A stretch of DNA of 64,000 bases. It comes from Geothrix terrae (GTDB lineage Bacteria; Acidobacteriota; Holophagae; Holophagales; Holophagaceae). Position numbers and translations under genes: made by a program. The stretch covers positions 124,001 to 188,000 of the forward strand of contig NZ_JAKZLA010000001.1 of NCBI RefSeq assembly GCF_022808775.1. The letters run 5' to 3'. Below the pieces are notes generated by a model. That model ran no database searches. It worked only from the letters and a program-made list of their open reading frames with translations, and had not been told where the DNA came from. Each line of letters opens with the position of its first letter. The first letter of the stretch is position 1. This document shows positions 17,114 through 30,232 of the stretch, piece by piece.

Positions 17114-17473
17114 ATGAGCGCCGCTACCAGCGAATGTCTATTCTGCAAGATCGCGCGGAAGGAGATCCCCGCGACCCTAGTGTACGAAGATGACAGCTTG
17201 CTCGCCTTCAAAGACATCTCGCCCCAGGCGCCGGTGCACCTGCTGATCATCGCGAAGGGGCACTGCGAGGGTCCGGCGGACATGACCCCAGAGATCGCCG
17301 CGGCCGTGGGTCGCATCCCCCAGGTGGCCGCCCGCCTGGCCCGGGAATGCGGGGTCGCCGCCAGCGGTTGGCGCCTCCTTACCAACTCCGGGCCCGATTC
17401 GGGGCAGACCGTGTTCCATCTCCACTTCCACCTCCTCGGCGGCAAGCCCCTGGGCGGGAAGCTCTGCCTCTGA
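17114..17473 (+). CDS. hinT: HIT-family nucleotide hydrolase (HinT-like)
   Basis: A 119-residue histidine-triad protein. The N-terminus CLFCKIARKEIPATLVYEDD is typical of HinT, a purine nucleoside phosphoramidase. The triad is FHLHFHLLGG with His102, His104 and His106, the last two flanking the catalytic position. FKDISPQAPVHLLIIAK is the conserved central strand. The gene starts 11 bp from trmL in the opposite direction and is followed by a very strong terminator that separates it from the dcw cluster. Confidence 0.93.
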   Translation: MSAATSECLFCKIARKEIPATLVYEDDSLLAFKDISPQAPVHLLIIAKGHCEGPADMTPEIAAAVGRIPQVAARLARECGVAASGWRLLTNSGPDSGQTVFHLHFHLLGGKPLGGKLCL

Positions 17474-17503: not shown

Positions 17504-17547
17504 AGCGAAAAAGACACGCCTTTGCGTGTCTTTTTCGCTTTTATTTC
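17504..17547 (+). terminator. Strong intrinsic terminator after hinT
   Basis: AGCGAAAAAGACACGC (17504-17519) pairs perfectly with 17524-17539, a 16-bp stem with a CTTT loop, followed by TTTATTT. It insulates the dcw promoter from upstream transcription. Confidence 0.9.
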
Positions 17548-17550
17548 CGC

Positions 17551-17578
17551 TTGTGGCATCTCGGCGCCTTTCTAGACT
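17551..17578 (+). promoter_or_regulatory. Candidate promoter of the mraZ-led dcw cluster
   Basis: TTGTGG (17551-17556) and TAGACT (17573-17578) lie 16 bp apart, just after the hinT terminator. The -10 matches four of six consensus positions and the -35 only three. A start near 17585 would fall inside the first AGTGG repeat, a position suited to repression by MraZ. Confidence 0.4.
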
Positions 17579-17580
17579 TT

Positions 17581-17630
17581 GAAGTGGTTCTCAGTGGAGA
17601 AAAGTGGTCTGAAGTGGATCAAAGTGGTCT
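17581..17630 (+). promoter_or_regulatory. Five 10-bp AGTGG direct repeats: probable MraZ operator
   Basis: Five consecutive decamers each carry AGTGG at the same offset (17583, 17593, 17603, 17613, 17623), so the exact helical period of 10 bp is kept throughout. MraZ is known to autoregulate the dcw operon by binding GTG/TGGG-type direct repeats with 10-bp spacing upstream of its own gene (three in E. coli, about four in mollicutes). Five repeats just ahead of mraZ make this the expected operator in an extended form. Confidence 0.8.
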
Positions 17631-17673
17631 CTTCCCTCCTCCTGGTATCTCCTGAGGCCGCAGTTGAAAGGCG

Positions 17674-18165
17674 ATGCCGGTGCTGCGACTCCGCGGTAAT
17701 TCACCGGCCACGGTGGACGAGAAGGGACGATTGAAGCTCCCCTCTTCCTTCAAGGCCGAGCTCGAATCCTTCGCCCAGGGCGAGGGGGTCGGAGCTCTGC
17801 GTGAAGGCGCCGGCACCCTGCGGCACTATCTGACGTCCCTGGACGGCCGCTCCGCCCGCCTCTACCCCCTGCCGGTCTGGGAGGCCATCGAGGCCCGCCT
17901 GGCCGCCCTGCCGTCCACCAGCCCCGCCAAGCGCAAGTTCCTGGAGACCACCGCCTACTTCGGCAGCGAAGTGGAGCCGGACGCCCAGGGCCGCTTCGTC
18001 ATCCCGCCCATCCTGCGCGAGGCCGCCCAGCTCACCGGCGAGGTGGCCGTGCTCGGCCAGATGGACCACCTGGCCCTGTGGAACAAGGCCGGCTTCGAGC
18101 GCCGCCTGGCGGCCGAGCCACTTGGCGCCGAGGACCTGGCCCAGCTCGCGGACCTGGGGATCTGA
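17674..18165 (+). CDS. mraZ: Transcriptional regulator MraZ
   Basis: A 163-residue protein made of two SpoVT/AbrB-like swapped-hairpin repeats. The first contains VDEKGRLKLPSSFKAEL and the second DAQGRFVIPPILREAA. MraZ forms ring oligomers and represses the dcw operon by binding direct repeats, which are present upstream. The ATG is preceded by GAAAGG. It is slightly longer than the usual protein of about 150 residues because of an insertion after the first repeat. rsmH begins two bases after its stop. Confidence 0.95.
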   Translation: MPVLRLRGNSPATVDEKGRLKLPSSFKAELESFAQGEGVGALREGAGTLRHYLTSLDGRSARLYPLPVWEAIEARLAALPSTSPAKRKFLETTAYFGSEVEPDAQGRFVIPPILREAAQLTGEVAVLGQMDHLALWNKAGFERRLAAEPLGAEDLAQLADLGI

Positions 18166-18167
18166 TA

Positions 18168-19130
18168 ATGGCCACTCAGCCCCCCACCCATGTCCCCGTC
18201 CTCCTCCAGGAGGTGCTGGACAACCTGGTGCTGCCCCCGGCGGCCCGGATCCTGGACCTCACCCTGGGCCTGGGCGGTCACGCCGAGGCCCTGCTGGCCC
18301 GCTGCGACAAGGGCGCCCGCTACCTGGGCGTCGACCGCGACCCCGAAGCCCGCTACCTGGCCCGCCGCCGCCTGGGCGATGATGCGCGCCTCGAGATCCT
18401 GGCCTGCGCCTACGAGGACCTCTGGAACGATGCCCGTTTCCTGGCCTGGAAGGCGGAATCCGCCCCTGGCGGCTTCGACGCCATCCTCGCGGATCTGGGC
18501 GTCTCCACCCTCCAGCTCCGCAGCCCGGAACGCGGCTTCAGCTTCCGGGATGAAGGCCCACTCGACATGCGCATGGACACCACCTCCGGCCCCACTGCCG
18601 TGGAGTGGATCGCGGAACAGACCGACGAAAGCCTGGCCGACGCGATCTACCAGTACGGCGAAGAGCGCGCCAGCCGGCCCATCGCCCGCGCCATCCTCCG
18701 GGCGCACCGCGAAGGCCGGCTGGCCACCACCAAGGATCTGGCCGAGGCCGTCTACACGGTCATCCCCCGCGAGCCCGCCAAGCGCAAAGGCCATAGCGAC
18801 CCCGCCACCCGCACCTTCCAGGCCATCCGCATCGCCGTGAACGGCGAGCTGGACCGGCTGGCCGCCGCCCTGGAAGCCGCCGCCGGACACCTGCGCCCCG
18901 GCGGGCGCCTGGCCGTCATCAGCTTCCACAGCCTGGAGGACCGCATCGTCAAGCAGACTCTGCGGCGCCTCGCGGGCATCTACGACGGACCGGGCCGGAC
19001 GGCCCCCGTCACGCTCCCCAAGCTCCTCAAGCTCATCCATCCCGGTGGTCTCGCGCCCAGCGAGGCCGAGGCCGCCGCGAATCCCCCCTCCCGCTCCGCC
19101 CGCCTCCGCGTGGCAGAGCGCCTCCCCTGA
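18168..19130 (+). CDS. rsmH: 16S rRNA (cytosine(1402)-N4)-methyltransferase RsmH
   Basis: A 320-residue enzyme that methylates C1402 in the ribosomal P site. HVPVLLQEVL opens the protein and the SAM-binding motif DLTLGLGGHAEALL follows. Later come DAILADLGVSTLQL, the family signature PERGFSFRDEGPLDMRMD, and the C-terminal FHSLEDRIVK. ATG 18168 lies two bases after the mraZ stop. The longer frame from 18078 would overlap mraZ by 88 bases and lacks family sequence. This is the canonical second position of the dcw cluster. Confidence 0.96.
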   Translation: MATQPPTHVPVLLQEVLDNLVLPPAARILDLTLGLGGHAEALLARCDKGARYLGVDRDPEARYLARRRLGDDARLEILACAYEDLWNDARFLAWKAESAPGGFDAILADLGVSTLQLRSPERGFSFRDEGPLDMRMDTTSGPTAVEWIAEQTDESLADAIYQYGEERASRPIARAILRAHREGRLATTKDLAEAVYTVIPREPAKRKGHSDPATRTFQAIRIAVNGELDRLAAALEAAAGHLRPGGRLAVISFHSLEDRIVKQTLRRLAGIYDGPGRTAPVTLPKLLKLIHPGGLAPSEAEAAANPPSRSARLRVAERLP

Positions 19131-19142
19131 TCGAGGTCAACC

Positions 19143-19511
19143 ATGGCTGCCGGAATCCTGCCCAGCCCCACCGCTCCCGTCCGGACGGTCGAGAGCGAAG
19201 GCATCCTGCGCATGCTGCTCCTGGTACTGGCCCTGGCCATGCCCCTGGGCGTCCTGGCGTACCTGAAGATCCAGAGCACCCGCCTGGGCTATGCCATGGG
19301 CGACCTGAAGGAGCGCATCCGCAAGGAGGAGGAGCTCCAGCGCAAGCTCCTGCTGGAGCGCAGCCGCTACCAGCGGGATGAGGAAGTCCAGAGCTATGCC
19401 GAGAAGGCCGGGCTCCAGCCCCGCAAGCAGAGCCACCTGGTCCGCCGTGGCTTCACCCCGGAGGATCAGCGCCTGGCCAAGCTCCGCCCGGTGTCGTCCG
19501 ATGGATTGTAG
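19143..19511 (+). CDS. ftsL: Cell division protein FtsL-like
   Basis: A 122-residue bitopic protein. A short cytoplasmic tail leads into one membrane segment (about residues 21-42, GILRMLLLVLALAMPLGVLA), then a charged coiled-coil-like helix (GDLKERIRKEEELQRKLLLE). FtsL diverges strongly in sequence, so the call rests on this topology and on the position between rsmH and ftsI. It would recruit the divisome septal synthase complex with FtsB-like partners. Confidence 0.8.
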   Translation: MAAGILPSPTAPVRTVESEGILRMLLLVLALAMPLGVLAYLKIQSTRLGYAMGDLKERIRKEEELQRKLLLERSRYQRDEEVQSYAEKAGLQPRKQSHLVRRGFTPEDQRLAKLRPVSSDGL

Positions 19512-19567: not shown

Positions 19568-21709
19568 GTGTCCATCCGCTTCGCCACCGAGCCCCGCGTA
19601 TCCCGCCGCCTCCTGGGCCGGCAGGATCCCCAGGATCTGCTGAATCAGCGCCTGCCCTGGATCATGGGCGGCTTGGCCTTCTGGGCCCTGCTCATCCTGC
19701 TGCGCTTGCTCTGGCTGCAGGGCGTCGAGCACAGGAAGTACCAGGCCAGGGCCGATCAGCAGCACACCACCATCGTGCCGATCCCCCCCATCCGGGGCGA
19801 GCTGCGGGACCGGCGCGGGGAGCCGCTCGCCATCTCCATCAAGGTGGAGAGCCTTTTCGTCGATCCCCGCGTGTTCTACCCGGACTACAAGCCGGGAAGA
19901 GGGGAGGAGCGCCAGTGGGGCGAGCCTGACCGCAAGGCGGCCGCGGCCGTGGCGGCGAAGCTTGCGCCCATCCTGGAGCAGACGCGGGCCCAAGTGCTGG
20001 AGAAGCTCCTGAGGAAGAAGACCTTCGTCTATCTGGAGCGGCACCTGCCTCCGGTCAAGACGGCCGCCGTGCGGGCCCTGAACCTGGATGGCGTCGAGTT
20101 CCAGCCTGAAAGCCAGCGGTTCTACCCCCGGGGCAGCCTGGCGGCGCAGATCATCGGCTTCACCAACATCGACGGCCTGGGCCAGCTGGGCATCGAACAG
20201 ACCTACGACAAGCAGCTGGCGGGGGTGAAGGGCGAGCTCATCGCGCCCAAGGACGCCCACGGCAAGCTGCTCATCCTCCAGGAGAACTACAGCAAGATCC
20301 CCGTGAACGGGGCCTCGCTCCAGCTCAGCCTGGACGCCTCCATCCAGCACATCGTGGAAGACGCGCTCGAAGAGGGTGTGCGTCTCTCGCGCCCGCGCAC
20401 CGCCTACGCGGTGGTGGTGGACCCCCGCACCGGGGAGATCCTCGCCATGGCCGGCACGCCCACCTTCGATCCGAACCACATCCTGCCCAAGAAGTTCCGC
20501 AATCGCACTGAATCGGAACTTTCCTCGGCAGAACGGGACGAGCTCAACCGCGAGCTGGAGCGCCAGAAGGCGGCCCGCAAGGTGCATCCGGTGGAGGATG
20601 TCTACGAGCCCGGCTCCACCATGAAGATCTTCACCGCGGCCATGGCCCTGGAGGAACGCAAGATCCACCTGGGTGAGCGCATCGACTGCATGTCGGGCCG
20701 CTGGCAGTACAGCGCGAAAGTCCCGCCCATCACGGACACCCACCGCCACGGCCTCCTCACCTTCGAGGAAGTGCTCTGGCAGAGCTCCAACATCGGCGCC
20801 GCGAAGATCGGCATCCGCCTCGACCCGGCGGTGCACTACCAGTACTTGCGGAAGTTCGGCTTCGGCGACGCGACGGGGCTCAACTTCCCAGGTGAGAGCT
20901 CCGGCCGCCTCATCGCGCCGGACCGCTGGAGCGTGCCCACCCAGTACACGATGTCGTACGGCTACGGTCTCAGCACGACGCCTCTGCAGATCCTCATGGC
21001 CGGCTGTGTCCTGGCCAACGGTGGCAAGCTCATGCAGCCGATCCTCGTGCAGCGCATCTACAACGACAAGGGCCTGCTGCTGAAGGAATTCAAGCCCACC
21101 GTGCGCGGCCAGGTCATCAGCGAAGAGACGGCGAACCTCATGAAGGAGACCCTGAAGGGCGTCATCACCCAGGGAACCGGAAAGAAGGCGAAGCTCGACA
21201 ACGGTGTAGAGGCCTTCGGCAAGACGGGCACCAGCCGCAAGCTCATCGACGGCCAGTACGATCCCAAGCGCCACTTCGCGTCCTTCATGGGATTCTTCCC
21301 GGCCGACAAACCCCAGTTCGGGGTTCTGGTGATGCTGGACGACCCCGCCGGCGATACCACCGGCGGCGACGTGGCGGCGCCCCTGTTCAAGCGCATCGGC
21401 GACGGGATCCTGCGGTTCCGGCAGACCTCTCCGGACCCCGACCGCGAGGCGGACCTGAAGCTGTCGCTGCGTGACTGGCCTGTGAGCGAAACGGACGAGG
21501 CCGCCCTGCACGTGGAACGGGGCCGGGTGCCCGACCTCCAGGGCCTCAGCCTCAAGGCCGCCATCCATCGGGTGGTGCTGGTGGGCGGGAATCCGAAGGT
21601 GGACGCGGCGCCCGGCGCCACCGCCACGCACGTGGTGGGGCAGAGTCCTGCGCCGGGAGCCCCGCTGGAACCGGGCACGGCGGTGAAGATCAAGGCGGGG
21701 ATGCCATGA
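19568..21709 (+). CDS. ftsI: Septal peptidoglycan transpeptidase (FtsI/PBP3 family) with C-terminal PASTA domain
   Basis: A 713-residue class B penicillin-binding protein. One N-terminal membrane segment (about residues 32-55) is followed by the dimerisation domain and the transpeptidase domain with Ser350-x-x-Lys353 (STMK), Ser406-Ser-Asn408, and Lys552-Thr-Gly. The tail (about 655-713, RVPDLQGLSLKAAIH) is a single PASTA domain, a feature more usual in SpoVD/PBP2x-type proteins than in E. coli FtsI. The start is GTG 19568 with no clear ribosome binding site. The stop overlaps murE as ATGA. Confidence 0.93.
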   Translation: MSIRFATEPRVSRRLLGRQDPQDLLNQRLPWIMGGLAFWALLILLRLLWLQGVEHRKYQARADQQHTTIVPIPPIRGELRDRRGEPLAISIKVESLFVDPRVFYPDYKPGRGEERQWGEPDRKAAAAVAAKLAPILEQTRAQVLEKLLRKKTFVYLERHLPPVKTAAVRALNLDGVEFQPESQRFYPRGSLAAQIIGFTNIDGLGQLGIEQTYDKQLAGVKGELIAPKDAHGKLLILQENYSKIPVNGASLQLSLDASIQHIVEDALEEGVRLSRPRTAYAVVVDPRTGEILAMAGTPTFDPNHILPKKFRNRTESELSSAERDELNRELERQKAARKVHPVEDVYEPGSTMKIFTAAMALEERKIHLGERIDCMSGRWQYSAKVPPITDTHRHGLLTFEEVLWQSSNIGAAKIGIRLDPAVHYQYLRKFGFGDATGLNFPGESSGRLIAPDRWSVPTQYTMSYGYGLSTTPLQILMAGCVLANGGKLMQPILVQRIYNDKGLLLKEFKPTVRGQVISEETANLMKETLKGVITQGTGKKAKLDNGVEAFGKTGTSRKLIDGQYDPKRHFASFMGFFPADKPQFGVLVMLDDPAGDTTGGDVAAPLFKRIGDGILRFRQTSPDPDREADLKLSLRDWPVSETDEAALHVERGRVPDLQGLSLKAAIHRVVLVGGNPKVDAAPGATATHVVGQSPAPGAPLEPGTAVKIKAGMP

Positions 21710-23163
21710 AGCTGGATGTGCTCATCGATGGCCTGGCCGTGCGCCGATCCGGGCCGGATGTCGAAGTGGCGGATCTCACCAGCGACAGCCGTGAGGTCCG
21801 TCCCGGCTGGGCCTTCCTGGCCCTCAAGGGCGAGAAGGCCGATGGCGCCGCCTTCGTGCCGCAGGCGCTGGGGCAGGGCGCCTCGGCCGTAATCTCCGAA
21901 TCCCCGGTCGACCTGCCCTCGACCGTCGCAGGCTGTGTCTTCACGGACGATCCCCGGCTGCGGATGGCCGACCTGGCCCGCCGCCTCCATGGGGCGCCGG
22001 ATGAGCGCCTGGCGCTGATCGGCGTCACAGGCACCAACGGCAAGACGACGACCACCACGCTCATCCGCCAGCTTCTGCGGGGAGCCGGCCTCGGTTGCGG
22101 CCTGGTGGGCACAGTGCTGAACGCTGCCGGGGATGTGGAGGAAGAGGCGATCCGCACCACCCCGGAAAGCCCGGCCTTCTACCGCTGGTTGCGCCGCAGT
22201 GTGGAGGCCGGCGACGCGGCTTCCGCGGTGGAGGTGAGCAGCCACGCGCTCTGCCTCGGCCGCGTCCACGGCGCGCGGTTCAAGGTCGGCGTCTTCACGA
22301 ACCTCACCCAGGACCACCTGGACTACCACGGCACCATGGAGGCCTACTTCGAGGCCAAGCGCCGGCTTGTCGCCCAGTGCGGCCGGTTTCTCGTGAATGC
22401 TGACGACCCCTGGGGCCGCGCCATGCTGGAACGGGAGGGCCATGCCAGTTATGCGGTGGATCGCGCCGCCCGCTACCAGGCCCGGGATCTGGACCTGGGA
22501 CCCACGGGGACCCGGTTCACCCTGGCCTCGGAGGGACGGAACTGGAACGTCAGGAGCCCGCTCCTGGGCCGGTTCAACGTGTACAACCTGCTGGCGGCCC
22601 TGGCGGCCTGTGCCGAGGCGGGCTTCGATCTGGACCGGCTGGTGCCCGCCGTACCCATGGTCAAGGGCGCACCCGGGCGTCTGGAGCGCGTGGATTGCGG
22701 CCAGCCCTTCGGCGTGATGGTGGACTACGCCCACACGCCGGACGCTTTGGAGAAGCTGCTGGCGGAGGGTCGCCGCCTGCTGCCGCCGGGCGGTCGCCTG
22801 CACGTGCTGTTCGGTTGCGGGGGCGATCGCGACCGCGCCAAGCGCCCGCTCATGGCCGCTGCGGTGGCCGCGGGGGCCGACGTGCTCTGGCACACCAGCG
22901 ACAACCCGCGAGGTGAGGATCCAGAGCGCATCCTGGACGATGCGGCCCCGGGCATCCCGGAGTCCCTGCGCACCGATGGCGTCCGCTACCACCGCAACGC
23001 GGACCGGCAGGAATCCGTGCGGCAGGCCCTGGCGGACTGCCGCCCCGGCGATCTGCTGCTGCTGGCGGGAAAGGGCCACGAGCCCTACCAGGAGATCCGG
23101 GGTGTGAAATACCCCTACAGCGACCGTGCGGCCGTGGAAGCCGCGCTGCGGGGCAGCCGATGA
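21706..23163 (+). CDS. murE: UDP-MurNAc-L-Ala-D-Glu : meso-diaminopimelate ligase
   Basis: Adds the third residue to the peptidoglycan stem peptide in the cytoplasm. It has 485 residues in the three Mur domains. The ATP-binding loop is GVTGTNGKTTTTTLI, and the carbamylated-Lys region and HTPDALEKLL C-terminal hinge are visible. Asp399-Asn400-Pro401-Arg402 (DNPR) is the motif associated with meso-diaminopimelate rather than lysine specificity, so a diaminopimelate wall is predicted. It is coupled to ftsI and to the next gene by four-base ATGA overlaps. Confidence 0.96.
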   Translation: MKLDVLIDGLAVRRSGPDVEVADLTSDSREVRPGWAFLALKGEKADGAAFVPQALGQGASAVISESPVDLPSTVAGCVFTDDPRLRMADLARRLHGAPDERLALIGVTGTNGKTTTTTLIRQLLRGAGLGCGLVGTVLNAAGDVEEEAIRTTPESPAFYRWLRRSVEAGDAASAVEVSSHALCLGRVHGARFKVGVFTNLTQDHLDYHGTMEAYFEAKRRLVAQCGRFLVNADDPWGRAMLEREGHASYAVDRAARYQARDLDLGPTGTRFTLASEGRNWNVRSPLLGRFNVYNLLAALAACAEAGFDLDRLVPAVPMVKGAPGRLERVDCGQPFGVMVDYAHTPDALEKLLAEGRRLLPPGGRLHVLFGCGGDRDRAKRPLMAAAVAAGADVLWHTSDNPRGEDPERILDDAAPGIPESLRTDGVRYHRNADRQESVRQALADCRPGDLLLLAGKGHEPYQEIRGVKYPYSDRAAVEAALRGSR

Positions 23164-24158
23164 CGCGGATCCTTCCCGTCTCGGGCCCAGAGGATCCGGC
23201 CATCGCGGAGGCCGCTGGCCTGCTGCGCGCGGGGGGCCTGGTGGCCTTCCCCACGGAGACCGTGTACGGCCTCGGGGCCGACGGCCTGAATCCCAAGGCG
23301 GTGGCTCGGATCTACGCCGCCAAGGGGCGCCCGGCCACGAACCCGGTGATCCTTCACGTGGCCGACGCGGCCTCCGCCCAGGCGCTTGTCTCCCGCTGGT
23401 CCCCCGAAGCGCAGATGCTGGCGGAGCGGTTCTGGCCCGGGCCGCTGACCCTGGTCCTGCCCGCTTCAGACACCGTACCCTCCATCGTCCGCGCCGGCGG
23501 TCCCTCGGTGGCCCTGCGCTGCCCGGCCCATCCCGTGGCTTTGGCCTTGATCCGCGCCACCGGGCGCCCCCTGGCTGCGCCTAGCGCCAACCGCAGCCAG
23601 CATCTGTCGCCCACGCTGGCCCAGCACGTGGCCTCCAGCCTGGGCGAGGCGGTGGATCTCATCCTCGACGGGGGGCCGACGGAGGCGGGTCTGGAATCGA
23701 CGATCCTCGACCTGTCCAGTGGCCGGCCTTGCGTGCTTCGCCCCGGCCCCATCCCGCCGGCCGACCTCGAGGTTCTGGTCGGTCCCGTGGACCTCTGGAC
23801 AGGGGCGGTCCAGGCGGGCGACCGCCAGGCGGCTCCCGGCATGGCCGAGCGCCACTACGCCCCCCGGGCTCGGCTGCAGCTGGTGGCGCCAGGTTCCGGC
23901 TTGCGCGAGACCTTGGGCGAGACATCGGGATCCGTGGCGTATGTGGCCCTCGGAACCCTCCCCCCGCTTCCCCCGGGGGTCCGGGGCATCCTCCTGCCTC
24001 TGGATGCGGACATGGTCGGGGCGAGGCTCTATGCCCTCCTCCACGAACTGGACGACGCAGGCTGCGAGCGTATCTTCATGGAGCGCCCGCCGGAGGATGA
24101 GGCCTGGCTGGCCGTTCGCGACCGTCTCCGGCGGGCCTCGGCGAAGGAGCGGCCATGA
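23160..24158 (+). CDS. sua5: Threonylcarbamoyl-AMP synthase, Sua5 type
   Basis: Makes threonylcarbamoyl-AMP from threonine, bicarbonate and ATP for t6A37 tRNA modification. The YrdC/TsaC domain (about residues 1-200) shows GGLVAFPTETVYGLGADG, AKGRPATNPVILHV and APSANRSQHLSPT. The additional C-terminal Sua5 domain (about 235-332), joined by APGMAERHYAPRARL, marks the long Sua5 form (332 residues) rather than the short TsaC. It overlaps murE and murF by four bases on each side, so it is a fixed part of this cell-wall operon, which is not its usual place. Confidence 0.93.
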   Translation: MTRILPVSGPEDPAIAEAAGLLRAGGLVAFPTETVYGLGADGLNPKAVARIYAAKGRPATNPVILHVADAASAQALVSRWSPEAQMLAERFWPGPLTLVLPASDTVPSIVRAGGPSVALRCPAHPVALALIRATGRPLAAPSANRSQHLSPTLAQHVASSLGEAVDLILDGGPTEAGLESTILDLSSGRPCVLRPGPIPPADLEVLVGPVDLWTGAVQAGDRQAAPGMAERHYAPRARLQLVAPGSGLRETLGETSGSVAYVALGTLPPLPPGVRGILLPLDADMVGARLYALLHELDDAGCERIFMERPPEDEAWLAVRDRLRRASAKERP

Positions 24159-28813: not shown

Positions 28814-30232
28814 ATGCACGATGCCGCCCGAGCCGCCGCCGATCTCCGCGCCATGCTGGGCGCCGATGCCGTCCTGACAGAGGCCAACGACCTGGCCCGC
28901 TACGAGGATGGCTGGCGCTACGGGAAGGGCAAGGCCCTGCTGGCGGTGCGCCCCGGGACCACGGAGCAGGTGTCGGAAGTCATGGCCTACTGCCACGAGC
29001 GGGGTATCCGGGTGATGCCCCAGGGTGCCAACACGGGTTTGGTGGGCGCCTCCAACCCGGACGCCAGTGGCGAGATGCTCGTGCTCAGCCTGGAGCGGCT
29101 GAACAAGCGCCTGGAGGTCGACGCCATCAACCGCACCGCCGTGGTGGATGGCGGCGTGCTGCTCAGCACCCTGAACGCGGCGCTGGCGGAGCACGGTCTC
29201 ATGTTCCCCATCGACCTCGGGGCGGATCCCACCATCGGCGGCATGATCGCCACGAACACGGGCGGGACTCGCCTCCTGAAGTACGGCGATGTGCGCTACA
29301 ACCTCCAGGGCCTGGAGGCGGTGCTGGCGGACGGCACGGTGGTGGAGGTCATGAACCACCTCCGGAAGAACAACACGGGCCTCGACTTCAAGCAGCTCTT
29401 CGTGGGCACCAGCGGCGCCTACGGCGTGATCACCGGGGCGGTGCTCCAGGTGGTGCCCGTACCCCGGCAGCACGCCACAGCCCTGGTGGGCTGCGCCTCC
29501 GGCGAGGCCGTGCTGGCCCTCCTGAAGGCGCTGGAGCGGGAGATGGCCGACGTGTTCACGGCCTACGAGGTCATCAGCGCCAATGCCCTGGGCCCCGTGT
29601 TCAAGCACCACGAGGACATCCGCAACCCCTACGGCACCGCCCAGCCTCCCGCGTACACCGCCCTGGTGGAGCTGTCCTCCACCCTCCCCGGGACGGCCCT
29701 CAACCTGGCGGAAGTGCTGGAGGAACGCCTGGGCGCCTTTCTGGAGGGCGAGAGCGGCGAGGGCATCACGGACATATTCATGGGCAAGCCCGAGGACTTC
29801 TGGGCCATCCGCCACCACATCAGCGAGAGCCTCCGAAACGAGGGCAAGGTGCTGGCCTTCGACATCAGCGTGCCCCGGAGCCGCATGGCCGCCTTCACGG
29901 ACGCCGCGGTGGCCCTGTTGGCCAAGGACTATCCCTTCGTGCGCTGCTGCGACTTCGGCCACTGGGGCGACGGCGGGACCCACCTCAATCTCGTGTGGAA
30001 CGAGGGGGAGGCCCCGAGGCCCACGGCCCGGATCGTCGAGGAGCTTCAGTCGCGGATCTACGAGCTGGCGGTCCGGGGCTTCGACGGCTCCTACAGCGCC
30101 GAGCACGGGGTTGGCCCCCACAACCAGCGCTTCTACGACGCCTACACTCCGGAGCCCGTGAAGGCCGCAAACCAGGCCCTCAAGCGGCACCTGGACCCCA
30201 AGGGCCTCCTGGGCACCACGCGGCTGGGCTGA
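28814..30232 (+). CDS. FAD-linked oxidase, D-2-hydroxyacid (GlcD / D-2-hydroxyglutarate dehydrogenase) type
   Basis: A 472-residue flavoprotein of the vanillyl-alcohol-oxidase family. The FAD-binding domain carries VMPQGANTGLVGA, PIDLGADPTIGGMIATNTGG and LFVGTSGAYGVITGAVLQ. The C-terminal FAD-oxidase domain has CDFGHWGDGGTHLNL with metal-binding histidines, then SAEHGVGPHN and DPKGLLGTTRLG. This pattern is closest to D-2-hydroxyglutarate or glycolate/D-lactate dehydrogenases. The exact substrate cannot be read. It starts nine bases after murD and may be co-transcribed with it, although ftsW or murG would be expected in that position. Confidence 0.85.
   Translation: MHDAARAAADLRAMLGADAVLTEANDLARYEDGWRYGKGKALLAVRPGTTEQVSEVMAYCHERGIRVMPQGANTGLVGASNPDASGEMLVLSLERLNKRLEVDAINRTAVVDGGVLLSTLNAALAEHGLMFPIDLGADPTIGGMIATNTGGTRLLKYGDVRYNLQGLEAVLADGTVVEVMNHLRKNNTGLDFKQLFVGTSGAYGVITGAVLQVVPVPRQHATALVGCASGEAVLALLKALEREMADVFTAYEVISANALGPVFKHHEDIRNPYGTAQPPAYTALVELSSTLPGTALNLAEVLEERLGAFLEGESGEGITDIFMGKPEDFWAIRHHISESLRNEGKVLAFDISVPRSRMAAFTDAAVALLAKDYPFVRCCDFGHWGDGGTHLNLVWNEGEAPRPTARIVEELQSRIYELAVRGFDGSYSAEHGVGPHNQRFYDAYTPEPVKAANQALKRHLDPKGLLGTTRLG

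Follow-up and report, generated by a model that had tools for sequence, protein, structure and literature searches.

MraZ is known as a repressor of its own dcw promoter, on which it acts via short direct repeats (PMC7761207 and PMC8475190, both in excerpt). In Burkholderia cenocepacia, MraZ bound a DNA fragment in which a site of four repeats was then recognized downstream of the -10 element and overlapping the transcription start (PMC7761207, in excerpt). According to the same excerpt, this site lies before mraZ and is built of 7-nt repeats with 3-nt spacers, and thus shares its 10-nt period and probably its position with the array of the Geothrix genome described here, which has five repeats instead of four (PMC7761207). 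For mollicutes, the MraZ box is given as AAAGTG[T/G] (excerpt of PMC8475190, citing Fisunov 2016). Two structure entries of Mycoplasma genitalium MraZ, 9r4j (a promoter complex) and 9sz7 (a “4 box promoter”), place the protein on a multi-box promoter according to their titles; the fold is that of the Geothrix protein, whereas the identity is only about 23% and the title of 9sz7 names four boxes, not five. The mraZ promoter of E. coli K-12 (L065 in our set), reportedly described in Eraso 2014, carries AGTGGG, TGTGGG and AGTGGG in steps of 10 bp, and a TAAACT hexamer lies 6 nt ahead of them; this amounts to three good boxes and a weak AGGGG as compared to five boxes in Geothrix. A first, sequence-only reading of the locus had claimed more repeats than the three to four known from MraZ operators, and the B. 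cenocepacia, M. genitalium and E. coli sites agree with this. A search of the open-licence literature turned up no publication that deals with a five-box MraZ operator or with the new MraZ-DNA structures, which is weak evidence of absence.

The window analyzed here, the whole stretch of 64,000 nucleotides to which all coordinates refer, contains AGTGG five times without mismatch, in steps of exactly 10 bp, in positions 17583-17627 of the plus strand, as had been claimed for positions 17581-17630:

17583-17587, plus strand: putative MraZ box 1 (AGTGG), from sequence and family conservation; transcription start expected here or just after
17593-17597, plus strand: putative MraZ box 2 (AGTGG), from sequence and family conservation
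17603-17607, plus strand: putative MraZ box 3 (AGTGG), from sequence and family conservation; the least often exact box in the family
17613-17617, plus strand: putative MraZ box 4 (AGTGG), from sequence and family conservation
17623-17627, plus strand: putative MraZ box 5 (AGTGG), from sequence and from family and phylum comparison; beyond the usual three or four

The 10-bp steps place the boxes on one face of the helix. The linkers between them (TTCTC, AGAAA, TCTGA and ATCAA) are unlike each other, so that a plain tandem duplication does not account for the array. When up to 3 mismatches are allowed, the window has a single match to the five-box pattern and 0 of 100 dinucleotide-preserving shuffles have one, and with up to 2 mismatches the array is the single match in its own genome, where a second five-box place was not found by this pattern search. 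The shuffles, together with the conservation in the family that is described below, rule out a chance origin, and the differing linkers rule out a tandem duplication; the probability that chance or a recent duplication of a decamer produced the array is therefore negligible.

Three boxes are a different matter. A search of the own genome for three AGTGG boxes with 0-2 mismatches returned the three registers of the array and 2 further places with 2 mismatches each, and its reversed control gave 6 matches. Three RGTGG boxes without mismatch occur at one further place, as three GGTGG on contig 13, and as the control of this search gave 5 matches, three GGTGG boxes represent background. In the 47 genomes of the genus, exact three-box RGTGG matches comprise the arrays at the mraZ coordinates and scattered single places, most of which are three GGTGG and a few of which have AGTGG mixed in; in one genome (contig 157 of G035) three AGTGG lie within a short simple repeat. 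These scattered places are likewise taken as background, because control matches are about as frequent.

Promoter-like elements precede the array, and a probable ribosome-binding region follows it:

17504-17539, plus strand: terminator-like hairpin (terminator scan), presumably of the upstream HIT-family gene at 17114-17473 (HIT domain match)
17533-17548, plus strand: T-rich stretch TTTCGCTTTTATTTCC directly preceding the -35 position, a possible UP element
17551-17556, plus strand: putative -35 element, TTGTGG, 16 bp before the -10-like hexamer, from its sequence
17573-17578, plus strand: putative -10 element, TAGACT, ending 4 nt before box 1, from its conservation
17664-17671, plus strand: conserved TTGAAAGG before the start codon (alignment), probable ribosome-binding region

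The hexamer preceding the array reads TA[GCA]ACT in 71 of 75 family loci, and its distance to box 1 is 4 nt in 69 of the 75 loci, with 5 nt in five of the others and 3 nt in the last one; the -35-like hexamer is TTGTTG in many relatives. A sigma-70 scan of the region reported no promoter at its threshold, so that the support for a promoter comes from the conservation of the -10-like hexamer and not from the scan. As this hexamer ends 4 nt before box 1, the expected transcription start falls within box 1 or shortly behind it. The claim that the repeats overlap a predicted transcription start thus agrees with the conserved hexamer, but the scan does not back it. Further upstream, the hairpin runs into the T-rich stretch (17504-17548, plus strand). 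One hairpin was found in the region as compared to 0.7 expected from region shuffles, but its stem has 16 pairs. The T-rich stretch is partly invariant in 9 aligned sequences (the window included) and is also visible in loci without the hairpin; because it is kept in such relatives, the tail of the terminator may overlap with a possible UP element.

With the expected start, most of the array would be transcribed as part of the leader, and the repeats could then act in the RNA, via a ring-shaped or GGA-binding RNA regulator, rather than as DNA boxes. A helical period of 10 bp and an array that starts at the promoter argue against this, as does the DNA with such repeats that was bound by MraZ in B. 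cenocepacia (PMC7761207, in excerpt). Also, the leader had no Rfam match at the gathering threshold and its fold is unremarkable (z -1.29, with 21 of 200 shuffles as stable), which rules out a structured RNA leader, and we think that an action of the repeats in the RNA is barely conceivable.

The gene downstream of the array, mraZ, is the first gene of the dcw cluster and is followed by rsmH and then by FtsL-like, FtsI-type and Mur ligase genes:

17680-18165, plus strand: mraZ, encoding 161 aa when read from the conserved GTG (PF02381, start-codon conservation and fold)
18168-19130, plus strand: rsmH (mraW), from a profile match
19143-19511, plus strand: ftsL-like gene, from a profile match below the model's cut-off
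19568-21709, plus strand: gene for an FtsI-type penicillin-binding protein, from a profile match
21706-23163, plus strand: Mur ligase gene, from a profile match; murE by position

Most likely, mraZ begins at the GTG at 17680, as 68 of 75 family members have GTG at this codon and the others a different start codon (ATG in 4, TTG in 3). In its favor, the ATG at 17674 was rejected as start, because this position holds ATG in only 9 and TTG in only 4 of the 75; gene calling from the first ATG places the start two codons too early. From the GTG, 52 bases separate box 5 and the gene, in keeping with the claim that the repeats immediately precede mraZ. The cluster further contains a gene for a Sua5/TsaC-type threonylcarbamoyl-AMP synthase (23160-24158, plus strand) between two Mur ligase genes, and the murD-like gene is followed by a gene for an FAD-linked oxidase (28814-30232, plus strand) instead of another dcw gene. 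Four ORFs that follow the mraY-like gene had no Pfam match at an E-value of 1e-8.

The encoded protein scores 66.1 bits against PF02381, well above the cut-off of 23. Its best score with the five MraZ models of NCBIfam, 75.1 bits with TIGR00242, is below the equivalog cut-off of 98.35 bits, which is a naming threshold and not a biological criterion, and the other four scores are also below their cut-offs. Two AbrB-type half motifs (D-x-[KQ]-G-R) per chain are a mark of the MraZ family, and both are present, as DEKGRLKLP and DAQGRFVIP. An AlphaFold2 model of the single chain, computed from an alignment without the sequence L146 that a motif pattern had missed, has a mean pLDDT of 91.4. It matches 1n0f_B with a Z of 18.4 (rmsd 2.4, 139 aligned) and M. 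genitalium MraZ in 9sz7_A with a VIA-align Z of 17.7 (rmsd 2.4, 139 aligned), and the matches below the MraZ entries (FliY, FliM, CheC and others) have a Z of at most 5.6. The closest named relatives by MraZ are Geothrix paludis (98%) and further Geothrix, which places the genome in this genus or very close to it. As seen by eye, all 17 family sequences in the alignment but 0 of 28 others carry an insertion of roughly 6-13 residues in the N-terminal half, in a stretch that is of low confidence in the model. As three of these 28 come from five-box loci outside the family (L107, L112 and L149), the insertion is ruled out as a requirement for five boxes.

The sequence-only reading had proposed to compare mraZ upstream regions of related genomes, with a repeat number that is not conserved as a refuting outcome. 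The family set was equated with Holophagaceae from the names of relatives, two of which are labelled otherwise (one as “Deltaproteobacteria”, one as a “Bacillota” MAG). Of its 77 genomes, 75 have mraZ, as do 46 of the 47 in the genus, and the two family genomes in which none was found are 58% and 84% complete. For all 75 upstream regions, the best placement of five units was imposed and scored against RGTGG. The lowest sum was 20 of 25, and boxes 1-5 reach at least 4/5 in 75, 71, 71, 73 and 74 of the 75 loci, respectively. All five units do so in 64 of the 75 loci, among them 46 of 46 genus loci, and the remaining 11 have one weaker unit; the repeat number is thus largely conserved. The unit position before box 1 reaches 4/5 in none of the 75 loci and that after box 5 in 1. 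When the number of boxes was left free, five were obtained in 72 of 75 loci and six, four and three in one each; the locus with six belongs to the genus, whose other 45 loci have five, and those with four and three belong to the rest of the family, where the other 27 have five. Judged from this comparison, five boxes are a trait of the family with some decay.

Since one box has decayed in part of the family, not every box appears to be needed to the same degree. Exact RGTGG is found in 71, 67, 49, 57 and 65 of the 75 loci for boxes 1-5, and the low values of boxes 3 and 4 suggest that in some species a smaller number of boxes may suffice. This leads to the view that only three or four boxes are functional and that the remainder is left from an older or duplicated site, and the 11 family loci with a unit below 4/5 fit this view, as does the fact that three boxes are commonest elsewhere in the phylum. 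However, boxes 1, 2 and 5 are those most often exact, and over the 72 distinct arrays the TGG that closes box 5 does not vary in any of its three columns, whereas the next 10 columns average 0.30 bits; in the same arrays, box columns hold 1.75 bits and linkers 0.90. We therefore regard such a reduced functional site as unlikely, although it deserves to be kept in mind.

Outside the class, 68 upstream regions from 119 mraZ-bearing genomes were examined, of which 28 were chosen by best E-value, including some from genomes with further MraZ-like matches that may not represent the dcw copy, and 40 were hand-picked mostly in E-value order. Significant arrays, defined by at most 10 of 200 shuffles and uncorrected across the many loci, so that a few small arrays may be due to chance, were present in 45 of the 68 loci; 30 of these arrays have three boxes, 11 have four, 3 have five and 1 has two. 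The other 23 had no significant array with the RGTGG box model, to which the detector is tuned, so that it undercounts AATGG-based arrays. Within the class, arrays of two or three boxes are seen in 5 of 6 loci of one other family, and none of the 7 loci of a further family (f3) reached significance, several of which carry AATGG-type units that the detector scores low. In many three-box loci, box 1 likewise lies few bases after a -10-like hexamer, as judged by eye, which places the extra boxes of longer arrays on the downstream side. Furthermore, 12 of 149 phylum genomes lack a match to mraZ, and 10 of the 12 belong to two genera (g47 and g78). Outside the phylum, where the survey covered E. 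coli K-12 and eight further loci, five units of which one is degenerate precede mraZ in a MAG labelled Nevskia, a label outside the phylum (L266), and the non-Nevskia loci among the eight show one to four units.

A search of 396 phylum genomes for the five-box pattern with up to 2 mismatches gave matches in 38 genomes, namely in all 26 of the genus, in 8 of the 13 other family members and in 4 of the 357 genomes outside. As the reversed control matched in 6 of the 396 genomes, such loose matches alone prove little. All four matches outside the family lie directly before mraZ, though, and this is of relevance for the question whether another DNA-binding protein uses the boxes. The divergence of MraZ in this genome could be taken in favor of such a protein, but the position of these four matches speaks against it, as does the resemblance of the boxes to the described MraZ repeats (PMC7761207 and PMC8475190, in excerpt), and we consider another protein very improbable.

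With high confidence, we therefore assign the array as operator of the MraZ encoded just downstream, and very probably it serves autoregulation and exceeds the usual number by one or two boxes, which have been kept across the family. It is a modest variant of the known operator, with five units in place of the three or four of described sites. The proposal of an extended MraZ operator is thereby supported in part, for the extra boxes and for the largely conserved repeat number before mraZ. By analogy to known MraZ, adjacent subunits of the ring would sit on consecutive boxes and the DNA would bend along the ring; the start region would be covered and the promoter blocked, so that plentiful MraZ would hold down the transcription of mraZ-rsmH-ftsL-ftsI-mur. 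By the same analogy, MraZ may occupy all five boxes. Most likely, the extra boxes raise affinity or the tolerance to losing a box. That they make autoregulation steeper, as had also been suggested, is a further guess that would need assembly or opening of the ring on the DNA; if the ring forms before binding, there would be one ring per operator, and extra boxes should raise the affinity and not the Hill coefficient.

An unequal use of the boxes is also conceivable. Box 3 is the weakest in two of the five-box arrays outside the family (L107 and L112), but L149 has several weak units, L266 a weak box 4, and in G126, G316 and G420 the weakness lies at one end of the array. As lineages are not independent and other arrays are weak elsewhere, a relaxed middle box is a lead only. 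A ring or arc that engages five boxes unlike the four-box complexes, for example by clamped pairs 1-2 and 4-5 with a relaxed middle box, and with the N-terminal insertion as part of the arrangement, is doubtful to our view.

With three, four and five boxes before mraZ, the phylum offers a natural series, in which one can ask how many subunits of the MraZ ring touch the DNA and whether the number of boxes tunes the repression of the cell-division cluster. The family members with one weak box are natural variants that are suited to binding tests in this context.
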